From: Aromatoleum toluvorans
Lineage (GTDB): Bacteria > Pseudomonadota > Gammaproteobacteria > Burkholderiales > Rhodocyclaceae
Reading direction: 5' to 3'
DNA length: 36,370 bases
NCBI RefSeq assembly: GCF_012910905.1
Contig: NZ_WTVN01000038.1
Coordinates: 1-36,370 of the forward strand
Shown: in pieces, positions 17,595-32,895 of the stretch
Layout of the letters: every line of letters begins with the position of its first letter
How positions within the stretch are numbered: the first letter of the stretch is position 1
Notes under the pieces: generated by a model
What the model was told of the DNA's origin: nothing
Databases searched by the model: none
The model's input: only the letters and a program-made list of their open reading frames with translations
Position numbers and translations under genes: made by a program

Positions 17595-17798
17595 ATGGAA
17601 AGCCTTTACATCCTCGTGCCGCTATCGGTGGTGCTGGTGTTCGTGATCGGTGCGATTTTCTGGTGGTCGGTGCGCTCCGGCCAATACGATGACATGGAGG
17701 GGCCGGCGTACCGGATGCTCATGGACGACCGTGACGCGCCCGCGCCCCGCAGTCCCGAAAAACCGGAAGATCCGGCTTCACAGGTCAGGAACGAGTGA
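17595..17798 (+). CDS. ccoS: CcoS, cbb3 oxidase maturation protein
   Basis: 67 aa single-pass membrane protein. Transmembrane segment 4-26 (LYILVPLSVVLVFVIGAIFWW), then the conserved SGQYDDMEGPAYRMLMDD motif of CcoS, and a Pro-rich charged tail. CcoS is needed for cofactor insertion into cbb3 oxidase in Rhodobacter. It starts 6 bp after ccoI and is certainly in the same transcript. Confidence 0.92.
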   Translation: MESLYILVPLSVVLVFVIGAIFWWSVRSGQYDDMEGPAYRMLMDDRDAPAPRSPEKPEDPASQVRNE

Positions 17799-17844
17799 TC
17801 CCGACTTCACCGAACAGGTCTCCGTGCGAGGGGCGCGGAGTTTG

Positions 17845-17886
17845 TTGACTTACGTCAAAGCCCCGAACAGTGAGTATTGGCATACT
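17845..17886 (+). promoter_or_regulatory. FNR-type class II promoter upstream of ccoN
   Basis: TTGAC-TTAC-GTCAA (17845-17858) is a perfect FNR/CRP-family dyad with N4 spacing. A -10-like CATACT lies at 17881-17886. A start near 17893 puts the dyad centre at about -41.5, the standard class II activator position. Confidence 0.7.
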
Positions 17887-17892
17887 TTGCCC

Positions 17893-17999
17893 ATGGTTTT
17901 CGAGGTTGGTGCGAGGAAGCTCGAGCGCGCCAATCTGGTAAGGGTAATTTGTCTCTCTGTTGGGGTTGGGGGTGCGCTTGATGCGCACCCTTTTTTTTT
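17893..17999 (+). ncRNA. Candidate FNR-dependent small RNA (about 107 nt)
   Basis: The transcript predicted from the FNR promoter has typical small-RNA architecture. It has a 5' stem AGGTTGGTGCG (17903-17913) with CGCGCCAATCT (17926-17936), 11 bp including two G-U pairs. A mostly unpaired linker containing TCTCTCT (about 17952-17958) follows. A perfect 8-bp terminator hairpin with nine T ends at 17999. No start codon with a ribosome site falls inside. Analogous oxygen-regulated RNAs (FnrS, AniS, PhrS) are known elsewhere; sequence identity to them is not claimed. It could instead be an attenuated ccoN leader. Confidence 0.55.
17970..17999 (+). terminator. Intrinsic terminator between the FNR promoter and ccoN
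   Basis: GGGTGCGC (17970-17977) pairs perfectly with GCGCACCC (17983-17990) across the loop TTGAT, and is followed by nine T (17991-17999). A textbook terminator located 189 bp before the ccoN start. Confidence 0.9.
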
Positions 18000-18030
18000 G
18001 TTTAGCACTTTGGGCTATGATGGATTAATT

Positions 18031-18083
18031 AAAACCACTCTGGCAACAGGTTTTTTTTGTAACTGGGTACTTTCACCCATTAC
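18031..18083 (+). other. Further hairpins and T-tract in the ccoN leader
   Basis: AAAACC (18031-18036) can pair with GGTTTT (18049-18054), with a T8 tract at 18051-18058, giving a weak second terminator-like element. Just after it GTAA-c-TGGGT (18059-18068) pairs with ACCCA-TTAC (18075-18083) around a 6-nt loop. A TATGAT that could be a -10 lies at 18016-18021, but no convincing -35 or second FNR dyad was found before ccoN. Confidence 0.4.
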
Positions 18084-18188
18084 TGCAGTGCAATAGAATG
18101 TCGGCCGTTGTCACAAGTCTGTGGCGAGGTGTTGCACGCGCTCTCCCGGACTGGTGCGGAAGTTTTCTTCATCTCAAGGGGAAGTTTC

Positions 18189-19613
18189 ATGCAATCGCAG
18201 GCGACTTATAACTACAACGTCGTCCGCCAGTTCTCCATCATGACGGTGGTATGGGGAGTGGTGGGCATGCTGGTGGGGGTGATCGTCGCGGCACAGCTGG
18301 TCTGGCCCCAGCTGAACCTGAACGAGTGGCTGCACTTCGGCAGGCTGCGTCCGTTGCACACGAACGGCGTGATTTTTGCGTTCGGCGGCTGTGCGTTGTT
18401 CGCGACATCGTATTTTTGCGTGCAGCGCACCTGTCATACGCCACTGTTCGCACCGTGGCTCGCAAGCTTCACCTTCTGGGGGTGGCAGGCAGTGATCGTG
18501 CTGGCGGTCATCACCTTGCCACTGGGCCTCACCACCGGCAAGGAGTACGCCGAGCTGGAGTGGCCGATCGACATCCTGATCGCCGCCGTGTGGGTGTCCT
18601 ACGCCGTCGTGTTCTTCGGCACGATCGCGAAACGCAAGACCAGCCACATCTACGTCGCGAACTGGTTCTTCGGTGGCTTCATCCTCACCGTCGCGCTGCT
18701 CCACATCGTCAATAGCGCCGCGCTTCCGGTGACCCTGACCAAGTCCTACTCCGCCTACGCCGGTGTCCAGGATGCGATGGTCCAGTGGTGGTACGGCCAC
18801 AACGCGGTGGGCTTCTTCCTCACGGCCGGCTTCCTCGGGATGATGTACTACTTCGTGCCGAAGCAGGCCGAGCGCCCGGTGTATTCGTATCGCCTGTCGG
18901 TGGTGCACTTCTGGGCGCTGATCTTCACCTACATGTGGGCGGGTCCGCACCACCTTCACTACACGGCGCTGCCGGACTGGACGCAGTCGGTAGGGATGAT
19001 CTTCTCGCTGATCCTGCTGGCACCGTCCTGGGGCGGCATGATCAACGGCGTGATGACGCTGTCGGGCGCCTGGCACAAGCTCCGCACCGACCCGATCCTG
19101 AAGTTCCTGATCACCGCGCTGTCCTTCTACGGCATGTCGACCTTCGAAGGTCCGATGATGTCGATCAAGACCGTCAATGCGCTGTCGCACTACACGGACT
19201 GGACCATCGGCCACGTGCATTCGGGCGCACTCGGCTGGGTGGCGATGATCTCGATCGGCTCGATGTACTACCTGATCCCGCGCATGTACGGCAAGACCCA
19301 GATGTACTCGGTCGGCCTGATCAACGCCCACTTCTGGATCGCGACGATCGGCATCGTGCTGTACATCGCCTCCATGTGGATTGCAGGGGTGATGCAGGGC
19401 CTGATGTGGCGCGCCACCAACCCGGACGGCACGCTGACGTACTCCTTCGTCGAGAGCGTGAAGGCGAGCTATCCGTTCTGGACGATCCGCCTGCTGGGCG
19501 GGGTGATGTTCCTGACCGGCATGCTCATCATGTTCTACAACATGGTCCGTACGATGGCCGGCGAGAAGGCGTATGAGGCGCCCGTGGTCGCCCCCGCCGC
19601 CGCCCACGCTTAA
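18189..19613 (+). CDS. ccoN: Cytochrome cbb3 oxidase subunit I
   Basis: 474 aa, 12-helix catalytic subunit reducing O2 at high affinity with proton pumping. It contains low-spin haem ligand His57 in LRPLHTNG; the CuB region [16 protein letters not shown] and [15 protein letters not shown]; and the haem ligands in [12 protein letters not shown]. Length fits CcoN. The ATG at 18189 has AAGGGGA (18177-18183) upstream; the open frame extends further 5' but is not needed. First gene of the ccoNOQP operon. Expression is expected to respond to oxygen through the FNR site about 340 bp upstream. Confidence 0.97.
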
Positions 19614-24267: not shown

Positions 24268-24281
24268 TTGATCCTCGTCAA
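24268..24281. promoter_or_regulatory. FNR-type box between usp and the metallo-hydrolase gene
   Basis: TTGAT-CCTC-GTCAA matches the FNR/ANR dyad with N4 spacing. It can serve usp (about -62) and, in the other direction, the metallo-hydrolase (class II start near 24316, 14 nt before its ATG). The -10 for the latter is poor. Confidence 0.7.
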
Positions 24282-24329: not shown

Positions 24330-25739
24330 ATGGAACTGACATTTTTCGGCGCGGCCGGAGAGGTCACCGGCTCATGCGCGCGGGTGCGTTACGACGGCGG
24401 AACCTTCCTCGTGGACTGCGGCCTTTTCCAGGGTGGGAAGGATGCAGACCGGAAGAACCTGCAGGCACTCGACTTTGACCTGCGCGGTATCGACTTCGTG
24501 CTTCTGACGCACGCCCACCTTGATCACTCGGGCCTCGTGCCGCGCCTGGTGTCCCTGGGCTACAGGGGAAAGATCTACGCAACGGCCGCAACCGTGGATC
24601 TGCTGGGCGTGCTGTTGCTCGACTCCGCGCATATCATGGAGAAGGAGGCCGAGTGGATCAATCGTGGCAAGCGGCAGCGGAACCTGCGCCGCGGCTACGA
24701 AGCCGGCCCCCTTTACACGGTCAACCAGGCCCGGACGAGCCTGGCCAGCCTGCGCAAGATGTCGTATGGCGAGGAATTCAGTCCGCACCCCGGAGTCCGG
24801 TGCCGTTTCCATGACGCCGGGCACATCCTTGGCTCTGCCGTGATCGAGATCGATGTGGAGTCCGGTGACGCCGCGCGCAAGCTCGTCTTCAGCGGCGATC
24901 TGGGGCAGCCGGCCCGTCCGGTGCTCCGCGATCCCACCCCCTTGCCCGAGGCGGATTTTCTCGTCGTCGAGTCGACCTATGGCAACCGTGCCCACCGTGC
25001 CCTGGCCGAAACGGAGAAGGAGCTGGTGTCCGTGCTGCGGGACACGCTGGAGCGCAGGAAGGGGAACGTCATCATCCCGGCGTTTGCGGTCGGCCGGACG
25101 CAGGAAATGCTGTTCGTCCTTGCGGACATCGTGCGCCAGGGCAAGCTTGCTTCGCTGCACATCGTCGTCGATTCGCCGATGGCAGCGGCAGTCACCGAGC
25201 TGACCCTTCGCTACGACGAGCTGTGGGATGAGGAGACGCGTGAACTGCTGGCCTGGATACGCGCACATCCGGAGCGCCTGCGGCTGAGGTTCGTGCAGGA
25301 TGTCGAGGAATCGAAAGCCCTGAACAACGAGCGCGCGGGGCTAGTCATCATTTCGGCGAGCGGGATGTGTGAAGCCGGCCGCATCAAGCATCACCTGCAG
25401 TACAACATCGGCCGCAGCGAGTGCAGCGTGGTGATCTGCGGTTTCCAGGCGGCCGGCACGCTTGGCCGGCGGCTGGTGGATGGGGCCCGCACGATTACCT
25501 TGTTCGGCGAGAAATTCCCGGTGCGCGCGGCCGTTCACACGATAGGCGGCTTGTCCGCCCATGCCGACCAGCCGGCGCTGCTGGCGTGGCTGTCGCATTT
25601 CACGCGGCCGCCCCGGCACGCGTTTGTCGTCCACGGCGAGCGGGAAGCTTCCTCCGCGCTGGTGGACGCGGTCGGTGAGCGGCTCGCGTGGCCGAATGTC
25701 ACAATGCCCCTGGCGGGACACGGATACACTCTGACCTGA
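24330..25739 (+). CDS. Beta-CASP metallo-beta-lactamase-fold protein (putative RNA-processing exonuclease)
   Basis: 469 aa. The metallo-beta-lactamase core has the zinc motif LTHAHLDHSG (His61, His63, Asp65, His66), a further metal region FHDAGHILGSA and FSGDLG, a beta-CASP insert (SPMAAAVTELTLRY) and the RNA-metabolising C-terminal domain (GGLSAHADQPALLAWL). The family (YSH1/CPSF73-like) includes RNA endo/exonucleases. GGAGG (24321-24325) sits 4 nt before the ATG. phaC begins 25 bp downstream on the same strand, so a two-gene operon under the FNR box is likely. The RNA substrate is unknown. Confidence 0.88.
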   Translation: MELTFFGAAGEVTGSCARVRYDGGTFLVDCGLFQGGKDADRKNLQALDFDLRGIDFVLLTHAHLDHSGLVPRLVSLGYRGKIYATAATVDLLGVLLLDSAHIMEKEAEWINRGKRQRNLRRGYEAGPLYTVNQARTSLASLRKMSYGEEFSPHPGVRCRFHDAGHILGSAVIEIDVESGDAARKLVFSGDLGQPARPVLRDPTPLPEADFLVVESTYGNRAHRALAETEKELVSVLRDTLERRKGNVIIPAFAVGRTQEMLFVLADIVRQGKLASLHIVVDSPMAAAVTELTLRYDELWDEETRELLAWIRAHPERLRLRFVQDVEESKALNNERAGLVIISASGMCEAGRIKHHLQYNIGRSECSVVICGFQAAGTLGRRLVDGARTITLFGEKFPVRAAVHTIGGLSAHADQPALLAWLSHFTRPPRHAFVVHGEREASSALVDAVGERLAWPNVTMPLAGHGYTLT

Positions 25740-27562: not shown

Positions 27563-27576
27563 TTGATGCGAGTCAA
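27563..27576. promoter_or_regulatory. FNR-type box in a convergent intergenic region
   Basis: TTGAT-GCGA-GTCAA is a good FNR/Dnr dyad, yet it lies between the 3' ends of phaC and the Dnr-like gene, where no promoter is expected. A CAGAAT (27599-27604) is correctly spaced to act as a -10 for a plus-strand transcript starting near 27611, which would run antisense to the regulator gene. Confidence 0.5.
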
Positions 27577-30632: not shown

Positions 30633-31369
30633 GGCGATGGCGACGGGTGCTGGATCAGCCGCTTCAGGCCGGTGATGTCGAGAATGCGGATGTGCTTCTG
30701 CTGGACCGCGATCAGCCCCTCGTCCTGGAATTTCGAGAAGGCGCGGGACACCGTTTCGAGCTTGAGGCCGAGATAGGAACCGATTTCCTCGCGGGTCATG
30801 CGCAGGTGAAATTCCGCGGGGGAGAAGCCGCGTGCAGTGAAGCGCTGCGACATGTTGAGCAGGAAGGCCGCCAGGCGCTCTTCGGCGCGCATCGAGCCGA
30901 GGAGGGTCATCACGCCGTGGTCGCGCACGATCTCGCGGCTCATGACCTTGTGGAACTGGAGCTGCAGGCCTTCGACCACGCGCGACAGTTCCTCGAGCTT
31001 GCTGTAGGCGATCACGCAGACTTCGCTGTCTTCGAGCGCGATCGCATTACAGGAATGGGCCTCGGTGCTGATGCCGTCGAGACCGAGCATTTCGCCGGTC
31101 ATCTGGAAGCCGGTGACCTGTTCGCGTCCGTCTTCGAGCAGCACGTCGGTCTTGAATGAGCCCGCACGGATCGCGTAAATCGCCTCGAAGGGATCGCCTG
31201 CACGGTACAGGTGCTGCTGCCGCTTGATCTTGCGGCGCGCGCCGACAAGCTCGTCGAGACGATCGATCTCCGATTCCGACATGCCGAAGGGCAGGCACAG
31301 TTCGACCAGATTGCACTGGGAGCATGCAACCTTGAGACTCGCAACTGTAATCGGCACCGTCGCCTTCAT
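30623..31369 (-). CDS. fnr: FNR/ANR oxygen-sensing transcription factor
   Basis: 248 aa global regulator of the anaerobic switch. The N-terminal CSQCNLVELC supplies Cys16, Cys19 and Cys25, and Cys107 in AHSCNAIALE completes the set for an oxygen-labile [4Fe-4S] cluster. The recognition helix LETVSRAFSKF has Glu205-x2-Ser208-Arg209 for TTGAT half-sites. The ATG at 31369 is chosen by family N-terminus. It is the obvious candidate to act on the FNR boxes at 17845, 24268, 27563 and 31436. Divergent from hemN. Confidence 0.95.
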   Translation of the reverse strand: MKATVPITVASLKVACSQCNLVELCLPFGMSESEIDRLDELVGARRKIKRQQHLYRAGDPFEAIYAIRAGSFKTDVLLEDGREQVTGFQMTGEMLGLDGISTEAHSCNAIALEDSEVCVIAYSKLEELSRVVEGLQLQFHKVMSREIVRDHGVMTLLGSMRAEERLAAFLLNMSQRFTARGFSPAEFHLRMTREEIGSYLGLKLETVSRAFSKFQDEGLIAVQQKHIRILDITGLKRLIQHPSPSPRP

Positions 31370-31435: not shown

Positions 31436-31449
31436 TTGATCCACGTCAA
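31436..31449. promoter_or_regulatory. FNR box between fnr and hemN
   Basis: TTGAT-CCAC-GTCAA with N4 spacing. For hemN, a class II start would fall near 31484, 20 nt before its ATG. For fnr the site would lie about 67 bp upstream of the coding start, allowing autoregulation, though no good -10 is seen there. Confidence 0.7.
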
Positions 31450-31503: not shown

Positions 31504-32895
31504 ATGACCAGTCAGAATGATCTTGTGTTCGACCAGCAGCTGATTCGCCGGTTCGACATCAACGGGCCGCGCTACACGTCCTACCCGACGGCCGACCGCT
31601 TCGTCGAAGCGTTCGATGCCCGTGCATTGCGGGACTGGCTGGCGCAACGCGGTGTTGGGGGTGTGAGCAAACCGCTCTCATTATACTTCCACATCCCGTT
31701 CTGTAACACGATCTGCTACTACTGCGCGTGCAACAAGATCATCACGAAAGATCATGCACGCTCGGCGAAGTACCTGAAGTATCTCGACAAGGAAATCGGG
31801 ATGCAGGCCGCCGCACTGGGCGGTAGCCACCAGGTCACGCAGCTTCACCTCGGCGGCGGCACGCCGACCTTCCTGTCGCATGACGAGCTGCGCCAGCTCA
31901 TGGAGTCGGTGCACAAGCGCTTCACGCTCGTGCCGAACGGCGAATACTCGATCGAGGTCGATCCGCGCAAGGTCGATTTCGATACCGTGAAGCTGCTCGC
32001 CGACCTCGGCTTCAACCGCATGAGCGTGGGCGTGCAGGACTTCAACGAAGACGTGCAGGAAGCCGTCAATCGCATCCAGAGCTTCGATGAAACCAAGCTC
32101 GTGATCGACTCGGCGCGTGCCACCGGCTTCAAGTCCATCAGCATGGACCTGATCTACGGCCTGCCGCGCCAGAACATCATCAGCTTCAACCGCACGCTCG
32201 AGCAGGTGCTGGAGCTGTCGCCGGATCGCATCTCGCTGTACAGCTACGCGCACCTGCCGGGCCTGTTCAAGCCGCAGCGCCGCATCTCGATCAACGACAT
32301 GCCGACCTCGGACACCAAGCTGCAGATCCTGCAGCTGGCGATCCGCCGGCTGACGGAGGCGGGCTACGTCTATATCGGCATGGACCACTTTGCCAAGCCG
32401 GACGACGAACTCACGATCGCCCAGCGCCAGGGGCGCCTGCACCGCAATTTCCAGGGCTATTCGACGCAGGCCGAATGCGATCTGCTGGCCTTCGGCGTGT
32501 CGGCGATCGGCAAGATCGGCCCGGTGTACTCGCAGAACGTGAAGACGCTCGACGAGTACTACGATGCCCTCGATCGCGACGAGCTGCCGGTCCTGCGCGG
32601 CGTCGAGCTGACGGCCGACGACCTGCTGCGCCGTTCGATCATCCAGGCGCTGATGTGCCATTTCGAGCTGTCGATCGATTCGATCGAAATCGCGCACCTG
32701 ATCAAGTTCAACGAATACTTCGCCTCCGAACTCGAGGATCTCAAGGCGATGGAGGAGGCCGGCCTGCTGAAGGTCAGCGACAAGTGGATCAGCGTGCTGC
32801 CCCCGGGCCGCCTGCTGGTGCGCGGCATCGCGATGGTCTTCGACCGTTACCTGCGTGCCGACCGCGAGCGCGCGCGCTATTCGAAGGTCATCTGA
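31504..32895 (+). CDS. hemN: Oxygen-independent coproporphyrinogen III dehydrogenase
   Basis: 463 aa radical SAM enzyme converting coproporphyrinogen III to protoporphyrinogen IX without oxygen, needed for haem synthesis during anaerobic growth. The cluster motif is CNTICYYC (Cys67, Cys71, Cys74) within YFHIPFCNTICYY; LGGGTPTFL, the YGLPRQ segment and YIGMDHFAKPDDELTIA also match HemN. Length is correct. The ATG at 31504 is chosen because the protein starts there with the typical FDQQLIRRFDINGPRYTSYPTADRF. An FNR box and downstream terminator bracket it as a single-gene unit. Confidence 0.96.
   Translation: MTSQNDLVFDQQLIRRFDINGPRYTSYPTADRFVEAFDARALRDWLAQRGVGGVSKPLSLYFHIPFCNTICYYCACNKIITKDHARSAKYLKYLDKEIGMQAAALGGSHQVTQLHLGGGTPTFLSHDELRQLMESVHKRFTLVPNGEYSIEVDPRKVDFDTVKLLADLGFNRMSVGVQDFNEDVQEAVNRIQSFDETKLVIDSARATGFKSISMDLIYGLPRQNIISFNRTLEQVLELSPDRISLYSYAHLPGLFKPQRRISINDMPTSDTKLQILQLAIRRLTEAGYVYIGMDHFAKPDDELTIAQRQGRLHRNFQGYSTQAECDLLAFGVSAIGKIGPVYSQNVKTLDEYYDALDRDELPVLRGVELTADDLLRRSIIQALMCHFELSIDSIEIAHLIKFNEYFASELEDLKAMEEAGLLKVSDKWISVLPPGRLLVRGIAMVFDRYLRADRERARYSKVI

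Follow-up and report, generated by a model that had tools for sequence, protein, structure and literature searches.

The short interval between ccoS and ccoN of Aromatoleum toluvorans contains an FNR-type dyad, a hairpin and an intrinsic terminator in close succession. Does this array belong to the oxidase genes that follow, or does it encode an RNA of its own? An earlier note had proposed an FNR-activated small RNA in front of ccoN, a prediction to which conserved promoter geometry, structure and synteny lend support. The stretch ahead of ccoN very probably encodes a small regulatory RNA that is conserved in many relatives. FNR probably switches this RNA on when oxygen runs out, and the genes that it probably silences are those of iron-sulphur proteins and of oxygen defence. 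The relevant features are given below, with positions counted along the window, the whole 36,370-nt stretch of DNA that was analysed.

17595 to 17798, forward strand: ccoS, the upstream neighbour (TIGR00847, above cut-off).
17845 to 17858, forward strand: FNR-type dyad TTGACTTACGTCAA, centred on 17851.5.
17881 to 17886, forward strand: -10 hexamer CATACT.
17893 to 17999, forward strand: predicted small RNA of 107 nt (promoter and terminator geometry, fold z-score, conservation).
17903 to 17936, forward strand: 5' hairpin with a main stem of 10 bp (fold prediction, homologue folds, compensatory changes).
17952 to 17972, forward strand: invariant pairing core TCTCTCTGTTGGGGTTGGGGG (alignment, complementary sites ahead of start codons).
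17968 to 17999, forward strand: intrinsic terminator (terminator scan).
18072 to 18099, forward strand: possible separate ccoN promoter TTCACC-16-TAGAAT (consensus scan alone, 9 of 12 letters).
18189 to 19613, forward strand: ccoN, the downstream neighbour (TIGR00780, above cut-off).
30650 to 31363, reverse strand: fnr, located in the window itself and presumed to be the regulator (NF008365, scoring 250.7 bits where the cut-off is 228).

Homologues were collected in two ways. A BLAST search of 61 genomes with positions 17821-18200 gave matches at E <= 1 in 48 genomes and strong matches (E < 2e-6) in 29, comprising all 17 genomes of the genus (source genome included) and 12 of 20 other genomes of the family. 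In every one of the 29 strong loci the core CTCTGTTGGGGTT is accompanied by a T-run, and an FNR box lies no more than 130 nt upstream. A scan of titled genomes with the pattern TCTCTGTTGGGGTTNGGGNG, which misses the five-G form of Aromatoleum toluvorans, yielded at least 118 stretches. Most of the 80 titles listed refer to Azonexus, Dechloromonas, Accumulibacter, Azospira, Sulfuritalea, Zoogloeaceae, Rhodocyclaceae or unclassified betaproteobacteria. Three of the listed titles are plainly foreign (Poribacteria, Nocardioides, Asaia), and their stretches show neither T-run nor FNR box. With all loci pooled there are 192 places with the core, many of them repeats; a T-run is present at 185 and a strict FNR box at 172. 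Core and T-run occur together in 144 distinct sequences. Removal of L235, which is a target site, brought this number to 143, and L213 was removed because it lies too near a contig end. As the text pattern used for finding the 143 homologues in part dictates their core, the 29 loci selected by BLAST are the less biased set. Conservation of stem and terminator in related genomes had been set beforehand as a test of the proposal, and these genomes do keep the FNR box with its class II spacing as well as the 5' hairpin, the linker and the terminator. On account of this conservation, the array of dyad, hairpin and terminator is beyond chance.

The promoter has the geometry of a class II FNR site. 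CATACT begins 29.5 bp past the dyad centre, which places the predicted start at 17893 and the dyad at -41.5. The earlier note had called the dyad perfect; its palindrome is indeed perfect and its position right, but the arms read TTGAC/GTCAA and not the consensus TTGAT/ATCAA. A strict FNR box is present in 134 of the 143 distinct homologues and absent from nine, as against 246 of 9880 random 90-nt windows from the same loci. In 115 of the 134 box-bearing homologues a -10-like hexamer lies 28.5-30.5 bp from the dyad centre, which is class II spacing, compared with 0-3 of 134 at offsets well off this spacing. FNR-activated trans-acting sRNAs are recognized by a class II FNR site ahead of the sRNA promoter, and the predicted promoter has such a site. 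The Aromatoleum toluvorans genome also contains hfq. Within the window, TTGAYN4RTCAA occurs four times against an expectation of 0.05 (motif count over 36,370 nt). One FNR-type box, TTGATCCACGTCAA at 31436-31449, lies between the divergent genes fnr (reverse strand) and hemN (31507-32895, forward strand). Another at 24268-24281 is about 50 nt ahead of a gene for a beta-CASP/MBL-fold nuclease-like protein (24330-25739), and a further box at 27563-27576 has the end of a PHA synthase gene on one side and that of a Crp/Fnr-family gene on the other.

The predicted transcript folds into two structured ends joined by a linker. Its overall folding energy is -41.1 kcal/mol (z-score of -2.8), which was equalled by three of 200 shuffles. 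At the 3' end, a 10-pair stem-loop (17968-17992) runs into nine T residues (17991-17999), just as the earlier note had described for a transcript ending 107 nt on. Its 11-bp 5' stem is present in slightly different form, as 10 contiguous pairs (17903-17912 with 17927-17936) within a longer imperfect hairpin. The open linker that it described does exist but is not fully open, since its UCUC part is predicted to pair with GGGG in a weak 4-bp hairpin and its final G run falls within the terminator stem. The UCUCUCU stretch, put forward as the pairing element, is one part of a wider, near-invariant putative pairing element, UCUCUGUUGGGGUU.GGG, and candidate target sites match most or all of this longer sequence. 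Predicted lengths among homologues range from 66 to 121 nt with a median of 84 nt. The 5' part varies in sequence, yet its fold is better than that of dinucleotide shuffles (median z-score of -2.8, with 72% below -2; n = 134, 60 shuffles each). Covariation was assessed in 38 homologues of one related clade, in which six of seven stem pairs have two-sided changes and 92.5% of cells pair. The 5' stem has 43 cells with two-sided changes, compared with a shuffled mean of 10.9. The terminator stem is nearly invariant among the same 38 homologues and therefore gives no covariation signal there.

Candidate targets were sought by complementarity to the core. In the Aromatoleum toluvorans genome, the pattern CCCCAACCCCAACAGAGA with up to three mismatches gives seven matches, including the RNA gene, against one for a control. 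The only strong sites belong to two ferredoxins. The leader of a 2Fe-2S ferredoxin gene (contig 20) contains a perfect 16-nt site 44 nt ahead of the ATG, and the leader of a 4Fe-4S ferredoxin gene (contig 23) has a site with one mismatch over 16 nt, 51 nt before the start. Weak sites with three mismatches each lie ahead of ispH and gcvP; of the other matches, one lies just inside the reading frame of a dehydrogenase-like gene, in its first codons, and the other downstream of a gene. By sequence, the 4Fe-4S ferredoxin site recurs in 10 of the 17 genus genomes among the matches listed, and six of these were inspected. Across the same 17 genomes, the complementary 16-mer has 33 matches beyond the 17 RNA genes, against two for the reversed pattern (among matches listed). 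Across genus and family, the candidate genes that follow such sites include fumarase, IspH, ferredoxins, cytochrome bd subunit I, Fe-SOD, CuZn-SOD, DsrC/TusE and rubredoxin. They also include isocitrate lyase, a pyruvate-ferredoxin oxidoreductase subunit, phasin, pyruvate kinase, acyl-CoA dehydrogenase, SelO and a class V aminotransferase that we read as a cysteine desulphurase. The candidate sites lie 22-74 nt before start codons.

The positions of these sites are not random. After exclusion of the sRNA genes L354, L357 and L373, a strict test placed 24 of 73 sites before a gene start in the sense orientation and 0 of 73 in antisense (among matches listed); the figure of 24 is a low one, since the test misses evident cases (both sodC sites and several ferredoxins), and some of the 73 sites represent one gene in related species, so that a binomial value overstates their independence. 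Null sets gave about 3%, whether drawn from random positions (457 of 14600), CCCC positions (254 of 9676) or permuted 16-mers (23 of 661). A pool of 8-kb loci, itself chosen by the core pattern, gave two of six non-sRNA sites before a start with up to two mismatches (0 of 37 for permuted patterns) and two of nine with up to three mismatches (23 of 661 for permuted patterns). At up to three mismatches the complementary pattern is no commoner in this locus pool than permuted ones (9 against a mean of 16.5). Since the target sites were found by complementarity, their duplex energies are not independent proof. Where the complementary sites fall may point to base pairing with mRNAs.

These observations bear on how the array is to be read. 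The FNR promoter could drive the oxidase operon ccoNOQP, with the hairpin of a leader or attenuator tuning read-through and the short RNA being a by-product. The genomic setting would suit this, as ccoN lies downstream on the same strand in 128 of the 143 homologues (median distance from the core of 224 nt), with nine of the remaining cases cut by a contig end and six without a ccoN match; the upstream gene is ccoS in 130 of the 143. The subclade to which the Aromatoleum toluvorans window belongs also has no second strict FNR box ahead of ccoN. In 112 of the 128 loci, however, such a box is found between terminator and ccoN. With ccoN having an FNR box of its own downstream of the terminator, the RNA looks like a stand-alone transcript rather than a leader, a putative transcription unit closed by its own intrinsic terminator. 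The core is moreover conserved far beyond what a terminator needs, and its complement recurs ahead of other genes, so we consider a leader or attenuator quite unlikely. Between terminator and ccoN, where most relatives have the second box, the window's own subclade has the promoter-like site TTCACC-16-TAGAAT and retains a long conserved block (CTATGAT..GTAATTAAAACCA and TGCAGTGCAATAGAATGTCGGCCGTTGTCAC; 18000-18110 and loci L006-L015).

Conservation of the core beyond the needs of short seeds would also fit a real RNA that serves mainly as a sponge, for another sRNA or for a protein (Hfq or CsrA-like), rather than pairing with the mRNAs listed above. This we judge very unlikely, because long complementary sites stand ahead of start codons in sense and none do so in antisense. 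A leaderless small protein, read from the ATG at 17893 in a frame that is open to 18096 in the window, is less credible again and hardly to be expected. The start place has ACG in eight near relatives (L006-L013) and ATG in others (such as L014 and L016-L021), homologue lengths differ by single bases, and the pattern of conservation is that of a hairpin plus terminator.

We therefore favour, with considerable confidence, a stand-alone gene for a trans-acting sRNA that would be activated by FNR from a class II site, pair with mRNAs through its core and play an FnrS-like role. What the sequence itself shows is the promoter geometry, the structure, the conservation, the synteny and the fact that complementary sites are not placed at random. 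From these we infer that the RNA is transcribed, depends on FNR, uses Hfq and represses rather than activates, the last because of site positions only. At low oxygen, active FNR would bind the dyad at -41.5 and switch on a transcript of about 107 nt. This RNA would consist of a 5' hairpin of variable sequence, the near-invariant core and a terminator with an Hfq-type U-run. The core would pair with a C-rich complement at or just upstream of the target Shine-Dalgarno sequence and most likely block translation. As the UCUC and GGGG parts pair weakly with one another and the last G run is held in the terminator stem, pairing would probably start at CUGUU. The candidate targets have to do with life in oxygen (iron-sulphur proteins, superoxide dismutases and fumarase among them), so that the RNA would do the work of E. 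coli FnrS while being unrelated to it in sequence.

How does this RNA compare with those already described? FnrS of E. coli and its relatives is an FNR-activated small RNA with an intrinsic terminator, and its targets include superoxide dismutase and other oxygen-life functions. The ccoN-adjacent RNA resembles it in its predicted FNR-type promoter, its intrinsic terminator and its candidate targets, which likewise include superoxide dismutase and oxygen-life functions. It differs in having another core and other neighbours and in not being seen outside its own lineage. An Rfam search of the stretch returned no family above its cut-off, and FnrS itself gave no match at E <= 5. We read the RNA as a lineage-specific functional counterpart of FnrS and not as a member of that family. 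AniS of Neisseria and PhrS of Pseudomonas are oxygen-regulated sRNAs under FNR-type control, a feature that the ccoN-adjacent RNA would share; neither is among the Rfam matches of the stretch. The RNA has in common with SorX and SorY of Rhodobacter a short stretch, CUCnCUGUUGG, before the terminator. Both were rejected, SorX (RF02784) scoring 28.6 bits against a gathering cut-off of 46.6 and SorY 21.3 bits against 111.

The nearest published RNA that we found, S17/RF02278, is encoded by another gene of these genomes. The available text of the S17 preprint describes a 27-nt sRNA core, which it compares to RF02278, as common to Bordetella, Ralstonia, A. aromaticum and Ca. Desulfobacillus denitrificans (PMC11722255). 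From what the available texts say, S17/RF02278 (bdhR1, 'toxic' or double-hairpin) has a long conserved CU-containing core before the terminator and targets at ribosome sites (PMC11722255, PMC5688073). On that description the ccoN-adjacent RNA is alike: it too would be an sRNA of betaproteobacteria in which a long and highly conserved core containing CU precedes the terminator, and its candidate sites lie near ribosome sites. It scores only 20.6 bits against the RF02278 gathering cut-off of 50, and true RF02278 loci, with the core GTCTCCTCCACCCTCCTCCTTTGGTGTGGATTTA, are found elsewhere in the same genomes. Membership in S17/RF02278, at first suspected because of the preprint, was rejected in view of these true loci. 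Since those loci have another core at other places, the S17 preprint is not about the ccoN-adjacent RNA; the equation of the S17 core with that of RF02278 draws on portions of the text of PMC11722255 and one primer printed there. In the Aromatoleum toluvorans genome five RF02278 (S17-type) sRNA genes score above cut-off, four clustered on contig 95 near 63076-66476 and one on contig 26 near 126-191 (L281, L287, L294). The earlier note knew of no description of the RNA, and within the open PMC literature none was found by title or abstract start. The core sequence appears in that literature only in three unrelated papers, and the available text of a systems paper on A. aromaticum mentions small RNAs merely as a possibility (PMC9765128).

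The RNA has a restricted range. At order level, an RNA model matches 37 of 399 genomes at E <= 0.001. The 15 strong matches (E < 1e-15) fall in 13 home-family genomes and two genomes of other families (G380, G399), whose loci L250 and L251 have the core and FNR box. Of the weaker matches, the 15 inspected as loci (L263-L277) have terminators but neither strict FNR box nor core and were taken as chance or unrelated, with L266 bearing a partial likeness to the RNA. At phylum level, the core is matched in 10 of 398 genomes, exactly in two of the home family and with one mismatch in eight others, compared with 14 for a control pattern. Together the order- and phylum-level distributions point to a lineage-specific RNA. 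Within the home family, the complementary 16-mer (up to one mismatch) is found in 152 of 199 genomes, presumably for the most part in the RNA gene itself, with some 228 matches in all where the reversed pattern has 19 (hand tally among matches listed). Of 40 home-family genomes lacking the 16-mer, 11 match the RNA model at E <= 0.01 and 29 have no match at this threshold. Among the former, L383, L384, L385 and L387 count as variants, their FNR box being suitably spaced. The box of L386 is too near, L390 and L394 are doubtful, and the other model matches have no box. In the home-family genera g6, g7, g52, g76 and g83 the RNA seems to be missing from the sampled genomes, which give no clear model match.

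An address tag of 16-22 nt (CCCCAACCCCAACAGA plus flanks), acquired repeatedly before different genes across the lineage, may be what the near-invariant core reads. This would give each species its own set of oxygen-repressed genes and would mean independent convergence on the functions of FnrS (SOD, fumarase and iron-sulphur proteins), a suggestion that we offer tentatively and with slightly more doubt than conviction. The open PMC literature yielded no FNR-dependent sRNA for Azonexus, Dechloromonas, Accumulibacter, Azospira or Aromatoleum. The candidate targets have long and specific pairing sites and are thus testable at once. If the prediction is true, these organisms of denitrification and wastewater treatment would possess an oxygen-responsive post-transcriptional regulator that has converged with FnrS.
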